Source of the DNA: an uncultured Synergistales bacterium
GTDB taxonomy: Bacteria > Synergistota > Synergistia > Synergistales > Aminobacteriaceae
Direction of reading: 5' to 3'
Assembly (NCBI GenBank): GCA_905233215.1
Contig: CAJODC010000012.1
Location: forward strand, 1-44,180
Length of the DNA stretch: 44,180 bases
Shown one piece after another: positions 28,073-44,180 of this stretch (positions within the stretch are counted from its first letter, which is position 1; each line of letters begins with the position of its first letter). Made by a program: the position numbers and the translations under genes. The notes below the pieces were generated by a model, which made no database searches, had not been told where the DNA came from, and saw only the letters and a program-made list of their open reading frames with translations.

Positions 28073-28561
28073 TCACCTCGTTTGGTCTTCTTTACGGAAT
28101 GCTCTTGCGACTGCTGATACTGTATCTGTTAAAGCTCCCAGCAGGGCTTTTACTCCCGCGACAATCTGAGGCATGGCAAGAAGCGCGATTATTATTGACA
28201 GAGTCCAATAGTTCCATGTGTAAAGATTGTTCACATCATGCTTGAGACCCGTTATGTCGTTCTGTAATACCTCAACCTTAGCTTCAAGTCTGTCAAACCT
28301 AGCATCAATCTTGTCGAACTTAGCATCAACCTTATTGAATTTCTCATCAACCGTGTCGAACTTTTCATCAACTTTCCCTTCAAACGCGCTAATTCTTCTG
28401 TCAATCCTCTCTGTGAGTGCGTTAAATTCCTTCAACATCGTTGAACGAAACTCCGCATTCTCTGCCCTCATATCTGAAAGCTGTTTGTCTGTCCGCGCAA
28501 AATGTTCCCTCAACAAAAGCTCAAGTTTGGCCATGTCTACGCTATTATCACCGCTGGTCAT
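28073..28561 (-). CDS. Coiled-coil protein with C-terminal membrane helix (heptad repeats)
   Basis: This 162-residue protein has no known function. Residues about 45-110 form an unusually regular heptad array (KVDEKFD, TVDEKFN, KVDAKFD, KIDARFD, RLEAKVE): five consecutive seven-residue units with V/I and F in the core, predicting a long parallel coiled coil. A hydrophobic helix follows (WTLSIIIALLAMPQIVAG, about 118-136), then a short region and a basic tail (RAFRKEDQTR). AAAGGAGG lies 11 nt before ATG 28561. The layout parallels the proteins at 4779-5123 and 41297-41659. It stands alone between two plus-strand operons. DUF1640-like or XhlA-like labels are possible but unproven. Confidence 0.75.
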   Translation of the reverse strand: MTSGDNSVDMAKLELLLREHFARTDKQLSDMRAENAEFRSTMLKEFNALTERIDRRISAFEGKVDEKFDTVDEKFNKVDAKFDKIDARFDRLEAKVEVLQNDITGLKHDVNNLYTWNYWTLSIIIALLAMPQIVAGVKALLGALTDTVSAVARAFRKEDQTR

Positions 28562-36543: not shown

Positions 36544-37119
36544 CTAAGCGTTCCTGCCTAAATCGAACGCCTTTCTGTTGAGGTCAAGAAATTTTTGGGG
36601 GACACATTCGCTGATTGCTTCCTGCCATGCTTCCTGTGTTATGTCCGTGAAGTAATGAGAGAGTCGGCCAAGTAAGACGAGATTGACGGCCTTTGAGCTT
36701 CCAGCCTGTTCAGCGAGTTTCAAGCAGTCGAGAGCGTCAACTTTCGCGCCCGTTTTCTGAATTTCGGCCAAAAGATTCTCAGGGTAATTCATAGCTCCTG
36801 TGAGTACCGGCATCGGGTCTATCTGTTGAGTTGACGTTACGATCTGTCCGTCCTGCGAGAGGTAGTCCAGCCATCTTGCAGCCTCTAAGATCTCGAACGA
36901 TACGATGAAGTCAGCCTGTCCCCTGTCGATGACGGGAGAATAAACTTTGTCGCCGTACCTCACGTAAGTAACAACGCTTCCTCCACGCTGACTCATTCCG
37001 TGAACTTCGGAGACTTTCACGTCATAGCCCTGTTTAGTGAGGAGGTGTCCGAGTAATTTGCTGGCTAATACGCTGCCTTGTCCGCCTACGCCTACTATCA
37101 TGATATTTTTTGTGGTCAT
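36544..37119 (-). CDS. iorB: Indolepyruvate:ferredoxin oxidoreductase beta subunit
   Basis: IorB is the gamma-domain subunit of the two-subunit enzyme that oxidatively decarboxylates aryl-pyruvates (from Trp, Phe, Tyr) to arylacetyl-CoA, reducing ferredoxin. The 191-residue protein starts MTTKNIMIVGVGGQGSVLAS, with the GVGGQG motif and SEVHGMSQRGGSVVTYVRYG, both diagnostic of POR gamma-type domains. Its ATG (37119) lies 2 nt after the iorA stop, and the Shine-Dalgarno GGGAGGGG is inside the iorA 3' end, so translation is coupled. Confidence 0.96.
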   Translation of the reverse strand: MTTKNIMIVGVGGQGSVLASKLLGHLLTKQGYDVKVSEVHGMSQRGGSVVTYVRYGDKVYSPVIDRGQADFIVSFEILEAARWLDYLSQDGQIVTSTQQIDPMPVLTGAMNYPENLLAEIQKTGAKVDALDCLKLAEQAGSSKAVNLVLLGRLSHYFTDITQEAWQEAISECVPQKFLDLNRKAFDLGRNA

Positions 37120-37121
37120 TG

Positions 37122-38852
37122 TTATTCCCCTCCCTTGAACGCTCCGAATTTACATCTCTGCTCACACACACCGCAGCCAACGCACAACGTCTCATCAACG
37201 TGAGCCTTTCCGCCCTTCATCGACAGAGCAGGACAGCCTATCTTCATGCACGACTTACAGCCTACACACTTGGCCGTGTCAACAGTCAGAGGCGGATTGT
37301 GTTTCACGTGCTTCAGTAAAGCGCACGGCCTCCTCGAAATTATCACGCTCGACTCGTCAGCGTCTAATTCCTCCCTCAGAACATCGGCGCATTCCTTCAG
37401 GTTGTAGGGGTCAACAACTCTCACACGATTGAAGCCCATCGCCCTGCACAAGCTCTCAAGGTCTATCTTCCCGGCTGGATCGCCCTTGATGTTGAGTCCT
37501 GTCGTGGGATTCTGTTGATGCCCGGTCATTCCCGTTATCGAGTTGTCGAGAATTATCACTGTCGACTTGCTCTGATTGTACGCTATGTTGGCAAGTCCGG
37601 TCATTCCCGAGTGCATGAACGTTGAGTCCCCGATCACCGCAACAACATTCTTTCCTCCTGCCTTGCTGAAACCGTGAACGGCACTGACCGAAGCTCCCAT
37701 GCACAGCGTCATGTCCATCGCCGACAATGGCGCAACAGCTCCCAGAGTGTAACAGCCAATATCGCCGAGTACTGTGCAGCCAGCTTGATTCAACGTGAAG
37801 AACAGCCCCCTGTGAGGACAGCCAGCGCACATTAACGGAGGTCTTGCCGGAATCTTTACACTGTCATCAAGTTTTCGGCCTCTTGTTACTGGAAGCCCTA
37901 ACTTTTCGGCGATAATGTTCTGACTCAGTTCGCCCAAGTAACCGAATAATGATTTCCCCTCGCATTTAAGTCCCAAAATTTTGCAGTGTTCCTCAATGAA
38001 ACCGTCAAGTTCCTCAACGATTACGAGTCTGTCAACAGTGTCAGCAAAATTCTTCAGCTTCCTCTCAGGCATAGGCCATATCATTCCGAGTTTCAACACA
38101 GGGAACTTGTCGCCGAGTGCCTCCTTAACGTACTGATAGCATGTCGATGACGTTACGATTCCTGTTGACTTGTCCGAGCCGTCATCAATGCGATTGAGTC
38201 CGCTGGTCTCTGCGAAATCGGCAAGTCTCTTCATTCTTTCCTCGACAACAGGGTGGCGTTTGATGGCGTTGCCGGGCATCATGACATATTTTGCTATGTT
38301 CTTCTCGTAGGGACGTTCGGGAACTTCTTGACGTTCTCCGGCTTCAACGAGTGATTGAGAATGAGCGACTCTCGTACACATTTTGACGATAACGGGAGCG
38401 TCAAATTTTTCTGAAATCTCATAAGCTGCTTTGAAGTAGTCCAACGCTTCCTGTGAATCCGAAGGTTCAAGCATCGGAAGTTTCGCAGCCTTAGCGTAAT
38501 GCCGTGAGTCCTGTTCGTTTTGACTCGAGTGCATTCCGGCATCATCGGCGACACAGATGACCATTCCGGCGTTCACGCCCGTGTATGACACTGTGAACAG
38601 AGGGTCAGCCGCTACGTTGAGACCGACATGTTTCATTCCGCAAAAACTGCGCCTGCCTGCCAGCGATGCTCCGAACGCTGTTTCCATTGATACTTTCTCG
38701 TTTGGCGACCATTCGGAATAAACATCGTCATACTTCGCTATTTCCTCTGTTATTTCCGTGCTTGGAGTGCCCGGATAACTTGATGCAACACAACAGCCCG
38801 CTTCGTATAATCCTCTGGCTGCCGCTTCGTTTCCCTGCATCAATCGTTTCAT
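37122..38852 (-). CDS. iorA: Indolepyruvate:ferredoxin oxidoreductase alpha subunit
   Basis: IorA holds the thiamine diphosphate and two iron-sulfur clusters. The 576-residue protein starts with the POR alpha-type domain (MQGNEAAARGLYEAGCCVAS, YPGTPSTEI), has the TPP-binding segment around GDIGCYTLG and VIGDSTFMHSGMTGL with LDNSITGMTGHQ, and ends in a ferredoxin-like domain with CVGCKSCMKIGCP and CVGCGVCEQRCKFGAF (about residues 529-571). The final cysteine of the second motif is not followed by proline. GGGGG precedes ATG 38852. It leads the minus-strand operon with iorB, paaK and the ACT gene; a TATAAT upstream is the likely promoter. Confidence 0.96.
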   Translation of the reverse strand: MKRLMQGNEAAARGLYEAGCCVASSYPGTPSTEITEEIAKYDDVYSEWSPNEKVSMETAFGASLAGRRSFCGMKHVGLNVAADPLFTVSYTGVNAGMVICVADDAGMHSSQNEQDSRHYAKAAKLPMLEPSDSQEALDYFKAAYEISEKFDAPVIVKMCTRVAHSQSLVEAGERQEVPERPYEKNIAKYVMMPGNAIKRHPVVEERMKRLADFAETSGLNRIDDGSDKSTGIVTSSTCYQYVKEALGDKFPVLKLGMIWPMPERKLKNFADTVDRLVIVEELDGFIEEHCKILGLKCEGKSLFGYLGELSQNIIAEKLGLPVTRGRKLDDSVKIPARPPLMCAGCPHRGLFFTLNQAGCTVLGDIGCYTLGAVAPLSAMDMTLCMGASVSAVHGFSKAGGKNVVAVIGDSTFMHSGMTGLANIAYNQSKSTVIILDNSITGMTGHQQNPTTGLNIKGDPAGKIDLESLCRAMGFNRVRVVDPYNLKECADVLREELDADESSVIISRRPCALLKHVKHNPPLTVDTAKCVGCKSCMKIGCPALSMKGGKAHVDETLCVGCGVCEQRCKFGAFKGGE

Positions 38853-39421: not shown

Positions 39422-41254
39422 ATGTCAACGACTTCCGTAAAAGTTTTCTGTAAAAAAATAGCGGCAAACAGATTCACAATGGCTATTCTGGATTTCTTGT
39501 TGTTGTTCACTGCCGTATATTTCGGTTACGCCTTGAGATTCGGAATGACCATTCCCCGCTATGCTGATGACTGGCTCAGATTAAGCTGTATTATGCCGGT
39601 CTTGGGCGTTACCGTCTTCGCTCTATCAGGTCAGTACAAGACAATATGGTTTCACGCAGGAACGGAAGATTACACCCGCTTTGTGTGGGTCTATGTTCTC
39701 TCGGCTCTGCTCTTCCTGATGATTAACACAATGTTCAGGATTTCTGTGTTCCCGAGAACTTCATTTGCGATTTCGTTTTTGACGGGATTGTTCTTGTGCG
39801 GAGGATTGAGGTTTTCGTGGCGAGTCGTAAAGTCTCTTCATGTCCGTCAAGAAGCTCAACAGCGTTTTCGTACCCTCATCATCGGAGCAGGCGAGGCCGG
39901 TGCATTGCTGGCAAGAGACTTGATGCACACTGAGACGGAACTTTACCCGGCTGGCTTCGTTGATGATGACCCGAAGAAATCAGGCTGTCAGATTTCCGGC
40001 CTGCGTGTATTCGGCACTACTTCGGAACTTGAAGACATCGTGAAGCGGGAGAGTATTCAAGTCGTAGTGATTGCGATACCGTCAGTCAGCGGTGGAAAGA
40101 AGCGCGAAATTTACGACACTCTCTCACCGCTGGGCGTGAACGTCAGAATACTTCCGAGCATGTGGGAACTTGCCGGGGGAAAAGTATCAATCTCGGAATT
40201 GAGACAGGTGAAACTCGAAGACCTGCTTGGGCGTGAACCGATTAGGATTGACCTTGAGGACTCAATGAATTACATCAAGGGGAAAAGAGTTCTTGTTACC
40301 GGCGCGGGAGGCTCAATAGGCAGCGAGATTGTCAGACAGGTTATGCACAATGAACCGAGTGAAGTTTTCGTTCTCGGTCACGGTGAGCAGTCGATATATT
40401 TGCTGAATGAAAGTTTACCCGGCCTTAATCCCATTATCGCCGATGTAGCAGATCAAGTGGCCATGTCCGCACTTTTCGAGAAAATCAGACCTCAGATAGT
40501 CTTTCACGCAGCAGCTCACAAGCATGTTCCTTTGATGGAAATATCACCGCGTGAGGCCATGAGGGTTAATGCTCTCGGTACTCGCACTATCGCTCGTTGC
40601 GCAGGAAAGTTCAACGCTGAGAGAATGGTGATGATTTCGACCGACAAAGCCGTGAATCCTTCGAGCGTAATGGGAGCGACAAAGAGACTTGCCGAGAAAG
40701 TTCTTGAACATGAACAGAGAAATTTTCCTGAGACAAAATATATGGCTGTACGTTTCGGGAATGTTTTGGGAAGCAGGGGGAGCGTTATACCGAAATTTGA
40801 GGCTCAGATTTCAGCAGGAGGCCCTGTTACAGTTACACACCCTGACATGAAACGATACTTTATGCTGATACCTGAAGCCGTGAGTCTTGTCATTCAGGCT
40901 GGAGCTTTGGGACATGGCGGTGAATTGTTCGTGCTTGACATGGGCGAACCCGTAATTATCCGAGAGATGGCAGAATTATTGATACGCCTCTGCGGTTACG
41001 AGCCATACAAGGACATCAACATAGTGTATTCAGGAATAAGACCCGGTGAAAAACTTTACGAAGAATTATTCTACGATGAAAACTCTGTGAACAGTACGCT
41101 TCACCCGAAAATTTTTGTCAGTAAAATCAAGATGGGCGACACTTCAAGCGGTACTGACATTGATACTGCTCTTGAGTATGCGCTTCGTTATCCTGATGAA
41201 TCATACGGAGTACTCAGAAGGTTAGTGCCTGAATTTTTGCCGATTAAGGTATAA
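39422..41254 (+). CDS. Membrane-bound UDP-sugar 4,6-dehydratase (WbpM/CapD family)
   Basis: This protein of 610 residues combines an N-terminal membrane part and two Rossmann regions, as in WbpM, FlaA1-like and CapD proteins. Residues about 15-125 hold four hydrophobic helices. A first Rossmann-like domain starts at GAGEAGALLARDLM, and the catalytic SDR domain starts with GAGGSIGSEIV, then STDKAVNPSSVMGATKRLAE. The S/M/K arrangement with Met in the place of the usual SDR Tyr is that of WbpM. VRFGNVLGSRGSVIPKFEAQ and GIRPGEKLYEELF are further family motifs. It makes a UDP-4-keto-6-deoxy sugar for capsule, O-antigen or flagellin glycosylation. ATG 39422 is 2 nt after the previous stop. Confidence 0.92.
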   Translation: MSTTSVKVFCKKIAANRFTMAILDFLLLFTAVYFGYALRFGMTIPRYADDWLRLSCIMPVLGVTVFALSGQYKTIWFHAGTEDYTRFVWVYVLSALLFLMINTMFRISVFPRTSFAISFLTGLFLCGGLRFSWRVVKSLHVRQEAQQRFRTLIIGAGEAGALLARDLMHTETELYPAGFVDDDPKKSGCQISGLRVFGTTSELEDIVKRESIQVVVIAIPSVSGGKKREIYDTLSPLGVNVRILPSMWELAGGKVSISELRQVKLEDLLGREPIRIDLEDSMNYIKGKRVLVTGAGGSIGSEIVRQVMHNEPSEVFVLGHGEQSIYLLNESLPGLNPIIADVADQVAMSALFEKIRPQIVFHAAAHKHVPLMEISPREAMRVNALGTRTIARCAGKFNAERMVMISTDKAVNPSSVMGATKRLAEKVLEHEQRNFPETKYMAVRFGNVLGSRGSVIPKFEAQISAGGPVTVTHPDMKRYFMLIPEAVSLVIQAGALGHGGELFVLDMGEPVIIREMAELLIRLCGYEPYKDINIVYSGIRPGEKLYEELFYDENSVNSTLHPKIFVSKIKMGDTSSGTDIDTALEYALRYPDESYGVLRRLVPEFLPIKV

Positions 41255-41296
41255 TTCACATATCCACGAAAAATTTACGGCAAGGGGGAATAAGGC

Positions 41297-41659
41297 GTGA
41301 ACGAGGATTTTGTTACAAAAGGTGTCTTTAATTCAGATGTACGCAGAATTGAAGATAAGATGGACGCTACTGTCGCAAGAATCGAACTCAAAACAGACGC
41401 TGCCGTTGCAAGAATGGAAGCCAAAACAGATGCGTACATGGAAAAGATGGAAATGAAACTTGAAGCGGCAATGTCGGAAATGAAAGCTCAAAATGCGTCA
41501 TTCCGTGAGTATGTCTCCAATGAACTTTCAGACATGAATGTAAAAATATCAACAGTTGAAGCAAAAGTAGACAACATCAGCTGTAACGTTGCGTTAATCA
41601 TGACCGTGTTCGGTCTAGCGTTCTCGGCTGCGGCTATTCTGATACAGTACTTGAGGTGA
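41297..41659 (+). CDS. Coiled-coil protein with C-terminal membrane helix, next to antiporter subunit
   Basis: This 120-residue protein is the third of its kind in the window. It has an N-terminal helical coil (heptads such as ARIELKTDAAVARMEAKTDA, about 10-95) and one hydrophobic C-terminal helix (VALIMTVFGLAFSAAAILIQ, 98-117). The start is GTG 41297, with AAGGGGG upstream; the spacing is long, but no other start fits. The stop is 6 nt before the orphan antiporter-subunit gene, which points to a joint transcript. A TATAAT (41250-41255) overlaps the stop of the dehydratase gene and could be its promoter. No function is known. Confidence 0.72.
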   Translation: MNEDFVTKGVFNSDVRRIEDKMDATVARIELKTDAAVARMEAKTDAYMEKMEMKLEAAMSEMKAQNASFREYVSNELSDMNVKISTVEAKVDNISCNVALIMTVFGLAFSAAAILIQYLR

Positions 41660-41665
41660 ACGGCC

Positions 41666-43135
41666 ATGAACGAAAAATTACTTCTTCTTCCAATAATGAT
41701 CCCGGCAATATCCTCCCTCCTTATAGCGACAATAAACTTTCCGAACCGCAAACGCCGAAATATTTTCATCGAGTCTTGCGTTCTTCTCAACACGTTATCA
41801 ATAATCCTTCTCGTAATGTATCCGCCTTCAGGAGCTTTGACGCTGTTCAGGTTTTCAGAACGAGCAAGTTTCGCATTGAGGCTTGACGGTCTGGGAATGG
41901 TATTCGCCGTGTTGATTGCTGTGCTTTGGCCGTTGACGACTCTTTATGCGTTCGAGTACATGAGTCACGAACACCGTGAAACATCATTCTTCGGCTGGTT
42001 TGTGCTGACTTATGGAGTCGTTGCCGGTATCGCTTTGTCGTCGGATTTGTTGACGCTGTACTTGTTTTACGAGGTCATGACTCTGACGACACTGCCTCTT
42101 GTCATGCACGAGATGGACGGCAGATCGCGTTACGCCGGGCGGAAATACCTGACGTATTCCGTAGCTGGCGCAGCGTGTGCATTCATTGCGCTGACTTACG
42201 CAATGTCTCAGGGAGGCGGAGAATCTTTCACGCTTGGGGGGACTTTCGGAATTTGGCCGAACAAGCCCGATAACTTGTTACTTTGCGCATGGTTCTTGGG
42301 CTTCTTGGGATTTGGCGTGAAGGCCGCTGTCTTTCCCTTTCACGGCTGGCTTCCGTCAGCGTCAGTGGCACCGACTCCAGTTACGGCATTGTTACACGCT
42401 GTTGCAGTGGTCAAAGCCGGAGTCTTCGCTGTGATTCGTCTGACATGGTACGTCTTTGAGCCTGAAACACTCGCTGGAACTTGGGCGCAGTACGCAGCGT
42501 TCACGATGGTGTGTATAACGATACTTTACGGCTCATCAATGGCACTTGCGACACAGCACTTCAAACGGAGATTCGCCTACTCAACGATAAGCCAGTTGTC
42601 ATACATACTGCTTGGAGTACTTTTGCTGACCCCTGAAGGCTTGACGGGAGCATTGACACACATGGGAGGCCATGCGGTGATGAAGATAAATTTATTCTTC
42701 TGCGCCGGTGCTGTATTGTGTCAGACTGAAAGAGAATATCTTTTTGACATGAGGGGACTCGGTCTCGGAATGCCGAAAACATCGCTCGCTCTTCTGATTT
42801 CGGGGCTGGCTCTTTGCGGTCTTCCTCCTTCTGCCGGCTTCATGGGTAAATGGGAACTCGGCACGGCTGCCGCTGCTGTTCCGATCGGTTACGCTGGCGT
42901 TGCAATGCTTGCGGTGTCGGCGGTTCTGACGGTGCTGTATGTGTTCTCGATATTCAGCATATTCATAATGCCCGGTAAAAATTTCGACTTTAAGACAGCG
43001 AATGAGGGCGTGAAAGATCCGGGCTGGGAAATGTTAGTGCCTCTTGGGATTTTGGCAGCAGGATCGTTTTTGTACGGGCTTTATTCCGAGCCGATGATAA
43101 AATTTTTCGGGAAGATTGCTCAAGGCTTGATTTGA
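41666..43135 (+). CDS. Orphan MrpD/NuoM-type ion-translocating membrane subunit
   Basis: This is a 489-residue antiporter-like subunit of the complex I/Mrp family with about fourteen helices. Key charged residues of the channel are present: E136 in TM5 (LYLFYEVMTLTTLPL), K219 in TM7 (FGVKAAVFPFHGWLPSAS) and K250 in TM8 (HAVAVVKAGVF). SVAPTPVTALLHAV is typical of MrpD and hydrogenase-linked subunits rather than NuoL. Normally such a subunit sits in an operon of six to fourteen genes. Here no mrpA, mrpC, nuo or ech genes flank it; upstream is a coiled-coil/TM protein and downstream a gap. GAGGTGA lies about 6 nt before ATG 41666. It could move Na+ or H+ with partners encoded elsewhere. Confidence 0.88.
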   Translation: MNEKLLLLPIMIPAISSLLIATINFPNRKRRNIFIESCVLLNTLSIILLVMYPPSGALTLFRFSERASFALRLDGLGMVFAVLIAVLWPLTTLYAFEYMSHEHRETSFFGWFVLTYGVVAGIALSSDLLTLYLFYEVMTLTTLPLVMHEMDGRSRYAGRKYLTYSVAGAACAFIALTYAMSQGGGESFTLGGTFGIWPNKPDNLLLCAWFLGFLGFGVKAAVFPFHGWLPSASVAPTPVTALLHAVAVVKAGVFAVIRLTWYVFEPETLAGTWAQYAAFTMVCITILYGSSMALATQHFKRRFAYSTISQLSYILLGVLLLTPEGLTGALTHMGGHAVMKINLFFCAGAVLCQTEREYLFDMRGLGLGMPKTSLALLISGLALCGLPPSAGFMGKWELGTAAAAVPIGYAGVAMLAVSAVLTVLYVFSIFSIFIMPGKNFDFKTANEGVKDPGWEMLVPLGILAAGSFLYGLYSEPMIKFFGKIAQGLI

Positions 43136-43369: not shown

Positions 43370-43443
43370 GAAGTTGAAATCAGAAATGATTCGCGCAATG
43401 TGTCATTTTGATTTTAACATTCATTCAAGGAGGAACGATTATC

Positions 43444-44180
43444 ATGAAAAAATTTTCACGTTTATTGCTCGCGGTAATGATCGTTTGTCTGTCGGTATCG
43501 TTTGCGTTCGCGGGCGTGCTGACAAAGAGGAATACAGCACCGTCAGCAATTTCGTCAAATCCTTCGGCTTCGTCAAATCTAACGATTGATTGGACGCTGA
43601 GGAACGGGACAGTAGGATTAAGTTATTCAGATTTCGTCAGCGCAAGCGGCGGGTCTTGGCCGTATGTTTGGACTTATTCAGGGAACATACCGCCTGGACT
43701 TCGAGCTACGTATCCGAATGGTTCAGAGAGTCGGAAGCTGACGTTCTCAGGAACTCCAACCAAAGCCGGGACATATTCATTCAGGCTTTTTGTTGAAGAT
43801 GAGGACGGCAACGTTGCCTCAAAAGCTCTCACCGTAACAATAGCGTCAAATACCAGCATCAATTACACGTTCAAAGACGGAACTGTCGGTACGTATTATT
43901 CCGACTTTGTCACGGTAAGCGGAGGAACATCGCCGTACACTTGGTCTTATACGGGAACGCTTCCTAAGGGTCTGAGAGCTACGTATTCGGGCAACAGACT
44001 TACGCTTTCTGGAACGCCGACAAAAGCGGGAACGTACTACTTCACATTCACCGTCAAAGACAGTTACGGCAACAAGGCTACAAAGTCTTTCACCGTAAAA
44101 GTGATTAACCCGATGGCCATAAACTACACGTTCAAAGACGGAACTGTCGGTACGTATTATTCCGACTTTGTCACGGTAAG
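43444..44180 (+). CDS. Secreted protein with tandem He_PIG-like Ig repeats, 3' end outside window
   Basis: The gene runs off the right edge after 245 codons. It begins with a signal peptide (MKKFSRLLLAVMIVCLSVSF, cleavage near AFA-GV) and then repeats of about 87 residues, each with the putative Ig (He_PIG) pattern: DGTVGTYYSDFVTVSGGTSP, a W-Y strand, L..GLRATY, FSGTPTKAGTYSF or LSGTPTKAGTYYF, and F.V.D..GN. Unit 1 is about 43585-43860 and unit 2 is 43861-44121; unit 3 begins at 44122. Such proteins are usually large surface adhesins, and a C-terminal sorting signal should lie beyond the window. AAGGAGG (43427-43433) is 10 nt before ATG 43444. The repeats are near-identical in DNA. Confidence 0.87.
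   Translation, partial: MKKFSRLLLAVMIVCLSVSFAFAGVLTKRNTAPSAISSNPSASSNLTIDWTLRNGTVGLSYSDFVSASGGSWPYVWTYSGNIPPGLRATYPNGSESRKLTFSGTPTKAGTYSFRLFVEDEDGNVASKALTVTIASNTSINYTFKDGTVGTYYSDFVTVSGGTSPYTWSYTGTLPKGLRATYSGNRLTLSGTPTKAGTYYFTFTVKDSYGNKATKSFTVKVINPMAINYTFKDGTVGTYYSDFVTV
43861..43919 (+). repeat. Direct repeat inside the Ig gene, copy 1
   Basis: These 59 nt recur at 44122-44180, offset 261 nt (87 codons), with one mismatch (third base, T to C, synonymous). The second copy is cut by the window edge, so the identity may extend further. It marks recent duplication or gene conversion of an Ig unit. Confidence 0.95.
44122..44180 (+). repeat. Direct repeat inside the Ig gene, copy 2
   Basis: This is the second copy of the repeat at 43861-43919. 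The lines before it (43920-44121) match the earlier unit only in protein pattern, so the near-identity is confined to the start of the unit as far as visible. Confidence 0.95.

Follow-up and report, generated by a model that had tools for sequence, protein, structure and literature searches.

The antiporter-like gene D3, at 41666..43135 (+) of the window, is most likely a relocated part of an Mrp-type sodium/proton exchange complex and not a new minimal channel, because the gene is clustered with mrp genes in relatives and scattered here. D3 descends from an mrp operon that is intact in relatives, lies apart from the other mrp genes in its present genome, and is constrained like the subunit gene D1; its product probably still works, from a distance, in an Mrp complex with four antiporter-like subunits. 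The window is the whole stretch of DNA that was analysed, 44,180 nucleotides, and belongs to contig C12 of a 1.74-Mb genome that is held in 80 contigs and is 97% complete.

The D3 locus and its product

D3 begins with ATG and encodes a 489-aa antiporter-like subunit of the MrpD/MrpA/NuoL superfamily, recognised as an open reading frame with a PF00361 domain. Six nucleotides separate its start from the stop codon of CC (41297..41659, +; GTG start), which encodes 120 aa with a coiled coil and a single TM helix at the C-terminus and was defined by open reading frame and hydropathy. A GAGG motif resembling a ribosome-binding site for D3 lies within the last CC codons (41653..41656, +), and many CC-D3 loci possess a similar TGAGGT at the end of CC. 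The promoter-like leader ahead of CC, TATAATTCAnnnATCC (41250..41265, +), was called from the consensus only and is the only exact match within the window. The gene upstream encodes a PglF/PseB-like sugar-nucleotide dehydratase and the gene downstream an Ig-repeat surface protein. As these flanking genes are unrelated to D3, the original prediction of an antiporter-like gene that stands alone holds locally; the same genome has three further PF00361 genes. The position of the gene, 6 nt behind a small single-TM coiled-coil protein, and its intact E136, K219 and K250 were confirmed.

D3 matches PF00361 at E 1.9e-54 and also passes PF00662. NCBIfam scores it best with NF006236 ('putative monovalent cation/H+ antiporter subunit D') at 339.5 bits, far below the equivalog cut-off of 663 bits for a named MrpD, and the top PDB sequence match is MbhH of the membrane-bound hydrogenase (6cfw_H, E 4.7e-43). 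An AlphaFold2 model of D3 (pLDDT 90.8, pTM 0.91) superimposes on antiporter-like subunits of complex I and Mrp at Z 43-49, including 8e9g_L (Z 48.7) and the MrpD subunit 7qru_D (Z 48.6 over 473 residues, rmsd 2.4). An alignment of 23 relatives shows no variation at E136, K219, K250 or the TM12 lysine K395. D3 thus combines a Proton_antipo_M domain and an antiporter-like fold with the TM5 glutamate, TM7 lysine and further channel lysines of an MrpD/MrpA-like Mrp/CPA3 subunit. Within TM8 it has PTPVTALLHAVAVVKAG, which places a histidine at the position of the histidine of E. coli NuoL, HyfD and Streptomyces MrpA in the alignment. DabB/MpsA-type proteins form a two-protein module with a DabA (DUF2309) partner; no Pfam hit to DUF2309 was obtained in CC, in the two genes upstream of CC or in the downstream ORF.

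The surface protein gene downstream (43408-44178; Ig/PKD repeats, PF05345) has a signal-peptide-like start and runs past the contig end. A second coiled-coil protein, of 162 aa with a hydrophobic C-terminal part, is encoded at 28073-28561 on the minus strand; its XhlA-like match is weak and below the cut-off.

Intact and dispersed mrp gene sets

In relatives, D3 is the third of four antiporter-like subunits in a ten-gene order, mrpE-F-G-mbhD-mbhE/B-C-D1-D2-D3-D4, that both Clostridia and early-branching rumen Synergistaceae have kept. One-to-one orthologues of D1-D4 lie in a single row behind mrp genes in the rumen Fretibacterium MAGs RUI518 (L147) and RUI161 (L149), for which the ORF set upstream of mrpB was incompletely picked, and in the Clostridia MAGs L153-L156, where mrpE to mrpC precede the row; the gene order of these six loci links D3 to mrpE, F, G, B and C. 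In L153, Pfam assigned the small subunits as MNHE, MrpF, MnhG, MbhD and MbhE/MnhB. The contig of a further Clostridia MAG (L157) carries D1-D4 only. D3 is directly between D2 and D4 in G018, whose contig starts within D1, and adjoins D2 in G048, where D4 begins after D3 and the contig ends within D4. Exactly four matches per genome, all in one row, were found in six whole genomes (RUI518, RUI161, three Clostridia and one Oscillospiraceae). A sample of 147 genomes from the order of the Oscillospiraceae MAG yielded a match at E<=1e-60 in 14 and an adjacent D2-D3 pair in 11. The public genomes in which a scan found D3 are MAGs from rumen or gut with the label Fretibacterium, Synergistaceae or Synergistales, plus eight of Clostridia type. 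Both RUI518 and RUI161 have a forward ORF between D3 and D4 with repeats that we take to be Sel1-like.

A quick tree of 73 rows with long reference branches, used only for the D1-D4 clades and the relation of D2 to D3, recovered each of the four subunits as a single clade (SH-aLRT 99-100; 99 for D3), and each clade mixes Synergistaceae and Clostridia. D2 and D3 are sister clades. In a separate D3 tree of 47 rows, the 40 displaced rows are set apart, with a branch support of 87, from the seven operon rows, which lie outside them. Among D1-D4 the MrpA/NuoL-type TM8 histidine is confined to D3, and D1, D2 and D4 have a one-residue gap there. The same histidine occurs in the middle subunit of each of two three-D operons, from Peptoclostridium (L165) and Aminobacter (L168), and in the MrpD-like subunit of a Sinorhizobium complex I (L166). 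All three branch outside D2 plus D3 in the tree, which suggests that the TM8-histidine form of D3 is the older state and that D2 would be an altered duplicate.

In the window genome this linkage is broken: D3 is on C12, D1 and D2 are adjacent behind mrpB and mrpC on C66, and D4 (675 aa) is on C72 next to an ORF judged flagellin-like by its sequence. No mrpE was found in this genome, whose mrp contig is just 4.5 kb long and ends inside mrpB; MrpE (MNHE, PF01899) is present in 42 of 43 genus genomes. A search with the window protein identified a D3 orthologue, 70-92% identical, in 41 of the 43. PF00346, which marks the 49-kDa subunit common to complex I and group 4 hydrogenases, was detected in 0/43, the window genome included, by a search whose control matched in 11/14, so that Mrp is the sole complex of the superfamily seen in the genus. 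The original prediction, which proposed a search for mrp, ech or nuo clusters lacking this subunit, had also considered that the pair is a replacement module for a partner encoded far away. The search did find such a cluster, mrpB-C-D1-D2, and other genes of the operon thus lie on C66 and C72; D3 is, however, a displaced original subunit and not a replacement. An mrp operon with its own D subunits, together with a pair that is not conserved, had been named as evidence against the idea: the operon with D1 and D2 is there, but D3 itself is retained almost throughout the genus.

Two genomes, G006 (L097) and G050 (L110), have a second D3 copy that is cut by the contig end, and the copy in G050 is ~8 kb from D4. 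In G057, D3 and D4 are ~4 kb apart on opposite strands.

Constraint on D3, its leader and its coiled-coil neighbour

Rates of amino-acid change were compared mainly as dN because several dS values were saturated. Between the genomes G000 and G009, dN is 0.064 for D1, 0.083 for D2, 0.060 for D3, 0.124 for D4 and 0.089 for MrpC; for RUI518 against RUI161, both of which carry the operon, the values for D1 to D4 are 0.103, 0.093, 0.087 and 0.114. D3 evolves as slowly as D1, and since dN of the displaced D3 relative to D1 and D2 is as it is inside operons, there is no sign of relaxation after displacement. The pattern fits continued work in the Mrp complex, although it is not proof of it.

These rates bear on the main rival, that D3, once out of the operon, turned into a cation/proton antiporter or channel of one subunit that works by itself. 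The model for such a role is Nt-Nha of Natranaerobius thermophilus, like D3 a single MrpA/MrpD-like protein, for which antiport activity of the protein alone is reported (PMC5703873); isolated antiporter modules of complex I are reported to conduct protons (PMC11496545). D3 has its own promoter-like leader, all ion-path residues and a complete antiporter-like fold by prediction. It differs from Nt-Nha in deriving from a D1-D4 operon and in being known here from sequence, and both its rate of amino-acid change and its key residues match those of D3 inside operons, whereas a new role should have left its mark on constraint. A free-standing D3 is accordingly judged unlikely, and a subunit that remains part of the Mrp complex is preferred.

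A TATAAT within 110 nt (<=110 nt) of the start of the D3 unit is present at 29/42 loci, vs 168/2990 control stretches. In the window the stop codon of the upstream gene sits inside the TATAAT of the leader (41250-41265). In several relatives the stop codon of an aldo-keto reductase gene also falls inside the TATAAT, although the upstream gene differs. The same stop position behind differing upstream genes suggests recombination at this point. Given the TATAAT ahead of the whole unit, CC, when present, appears to lie within the transcription unit of D3, but D3 is retained without it as well.

CC has a hydrophobic segment at about residues 93-119 by hydropathy, following a charged coiled-coil-like stretch; neither Pfam nor NCBIfam matches it at E<=0.001, and its single PDB hit is at E 0.59. 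Its presence was scored by eye from an N-terminal FVxKD-like motif, a coil and a C-terminal hydrophobic stretch, counting the versions of G014 (349 aa) and G049 (51 aa) and leaving out a short remnant in G020. By this score, CC is just upstream of D3 at 20 of 42 D3 loci (from 41 genomes), 20 loci have neither CC nor an operon, and 2 are in the operon. The usual gene order is HIT-YqeY-aldo-keto reductase-(CC)-D3. In the window genome a PglF-like gene precedes CC, and the nearest aldo-keto reductase match, 70% identical, is on another contig. A CC profile gave 1-14 matches per genome in eight genomes, many of them weak and some split over one gene. Relatives of the same build adjoin unrelated genes, namely glyQ, rnhA, a DegT-type aminotransferase gene, iorA/iorB and prophage-like stretches; some of these names are our assumption, the neighbours presumably being glycyl-tRNA synthetase (two genomes), RNase H, DegT-type aminotransferase and iorB/iorA (one genome). 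The family seems to come and go at operon junctions without breaking genes.

An ion channel or antiporter built specifically from the two proteins CC and D3, as the original prediction offered in its minimal-channel version, is very unlikely. The pairing draws on the gap of 6-21 nt between the end of CC and D3 at all 20 CC-bearing loci, at some of which (the window, G058, G046 and G007) the upstream genes have changed, and on the ribosome site of D3 inside CC. Against it, 22 of the 42 D3 loci are without CC, and the D3 tree requires CC presence to have changed at least 12 times (mean of shuffled presence 15.3, with 29/500 shuffles as low). CC also varies from 51 to 349 aa and evolves fast (G000 and G003 are 62% identical in CC and 90% in D3), and CC-type proteins stand beside unrelated genes. 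An obligate CC-D3 module was rejected on the number of presence changes and on these relatives. In a joined CC-D3 AlphaFold2 model the TM segment of CC reached a pLDDT of ~43-57, with no confident placement of CC. CC is best explained as a dispensable accessory or passenger gene beside D3.

A phage origin for CC was also considered and rejected: a phage collection gave no tblastn match, and PHROGs matches were weak, scattered and typical of coiled coils. A CC-type gene in G022 (L076:1384-1791) lies exactly between iorB- and iorA-like genes with a 4 nt overlap, unlike the iorA/iorB pair of the window (36544-38852), which has nothing in between.

D3 was not found in two of the 43 assemblies, G008 and G041. 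G041 keeps the HIT-YqeY-aldo-keto reductase order and then has other genes at the usual place of D3; true loss is not claimed for G008, where the contig ends 212 nt past the aldo-keto reductase match. The D2 and D4 branches of G008 are not lengthened in the 73-row tree, which, with the two absences, hints that the Mrp complex may do without D3. In a third assembly, G055, D3 is split across two frames, perhaps by an assembly error. These absences and the split gene would be expected of a remnant that is being lost and has no current function, a view that is hardly credible for a gene with dN/dS ~0.06, its level of identity across the genus and all key residues kept. Almost no weight attaches to the last alternative, that D3 works for a complex I or a group 4 hydrogenase with genes elsewhere, which matches the superfamily similarity and the top PDB hit to MbhH and was rejected on the undetected 49-kDa subunit, the synteny of D3 with mrp genes also standing against it.

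At the usual D3 place in G041 (L199:1-1439) are a small Nif11-like leader peptide gene and an ORF that by eye resembles a radical SAM-type maturase.

A proposed four-unit Mrp set among related complexes

The preferred reading, a relocated Mrp subunit, can be set out as a series of steps. In the ancestor of most species of the rumen Synergistaceae genus, D3, and D4 as well, moved out of the operon, D1 and D2 remaining beside mrpB-C, and D3 gained its own promoter-like leader. Made in trans, D3 would insert next to D2 in the Mrp complex and carry one ion path through TM5 Glu136, TM7 Lys219, TM8 His244/Lys250 and TM12 Lys395. Four antiporter-like units in a row would then swap protons for Na+ or K+. 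Searches of the genus detected neither complex I nor a membrane hydrogenase, so an ion gradient would have to drive the Mrp complex, for example one from an Rnf/Nqr-type pump (RnfD/NqrB, PF03116, is present in 40/43 genomes). A wider picture is more speculative, and we put it forward tentatively: a rumen/gut lineage might have a four-unit Mrp set in which the Synergistaceae hold an unlinked gene for the TM8-His subunit, with its own promoter and an optional CC, and the number of pump units, three or four, might be set by expression.

In the literature searched, which covers subscription journals only in small part, no description was found of an Mrp set with four antiporter subunits or of a displaced D3 gene. 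Mrp/Mnh (CPA3) antiporters of groups 1-3 share with D3 the superfamily and the Glu/Lys residues, and the operon of the D3 relatives contains mrpE, F, G, mbhD, mbhE/B and C (PMC5703873). Classical Mrp has two antiporter-like subunits (A and D), and group 3 clusters are described with A plus two D genes (PMC5703873), as against four here (D1-D4); in addition, no full-length MrpA is present among D1-D4, and D3 and D4 are away from the operon. If true, a four-unit Mrp would be one unit beyond the largest Mrp sets named in the passages of that review considered here (PMC5703873).

A four-unit Mrp set, if true, would also be the Mrp counterpart of the extended forms of complex I. PMC9040806 describes forms with four and five pumping subunits, and 2M complex I, the rhizobial green complex I and the five-pump complex I of Manganitrophaceae have the same lengthened row of antiporter-like subunits (PMC9040806). 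These forms differ in being redox-driven and in having a peripheral arm (PMC9040806), whereas the genus here is without a detected 49-kDa subunit. The number of antiporter-like units in a complex I-type machine, and what each of them exchanges, is an open question in bioenergetics, and a natural four-unit Mrp set with one gene apart from the operon and one TM8-His unit would allow the role of an added unit to be examined. Annotators are warned that an antiporter-like gene found as an orphan may encode a scattered subunit and not a new transporter.

Peptoclostridium acidaminophilum (L165) and Aminobacter (L168) possess three-D mrp operons that are among the closest known arrangements and have the same order, E-F-G-(mbhD-mbhE-)B-C followed by the D subunits. 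They differ in having three antiporter-like subunits only, with one middle subunit instead of D2 plus D3, and this middle subunit shares the HAVAVVK motif of TM8 with D3.
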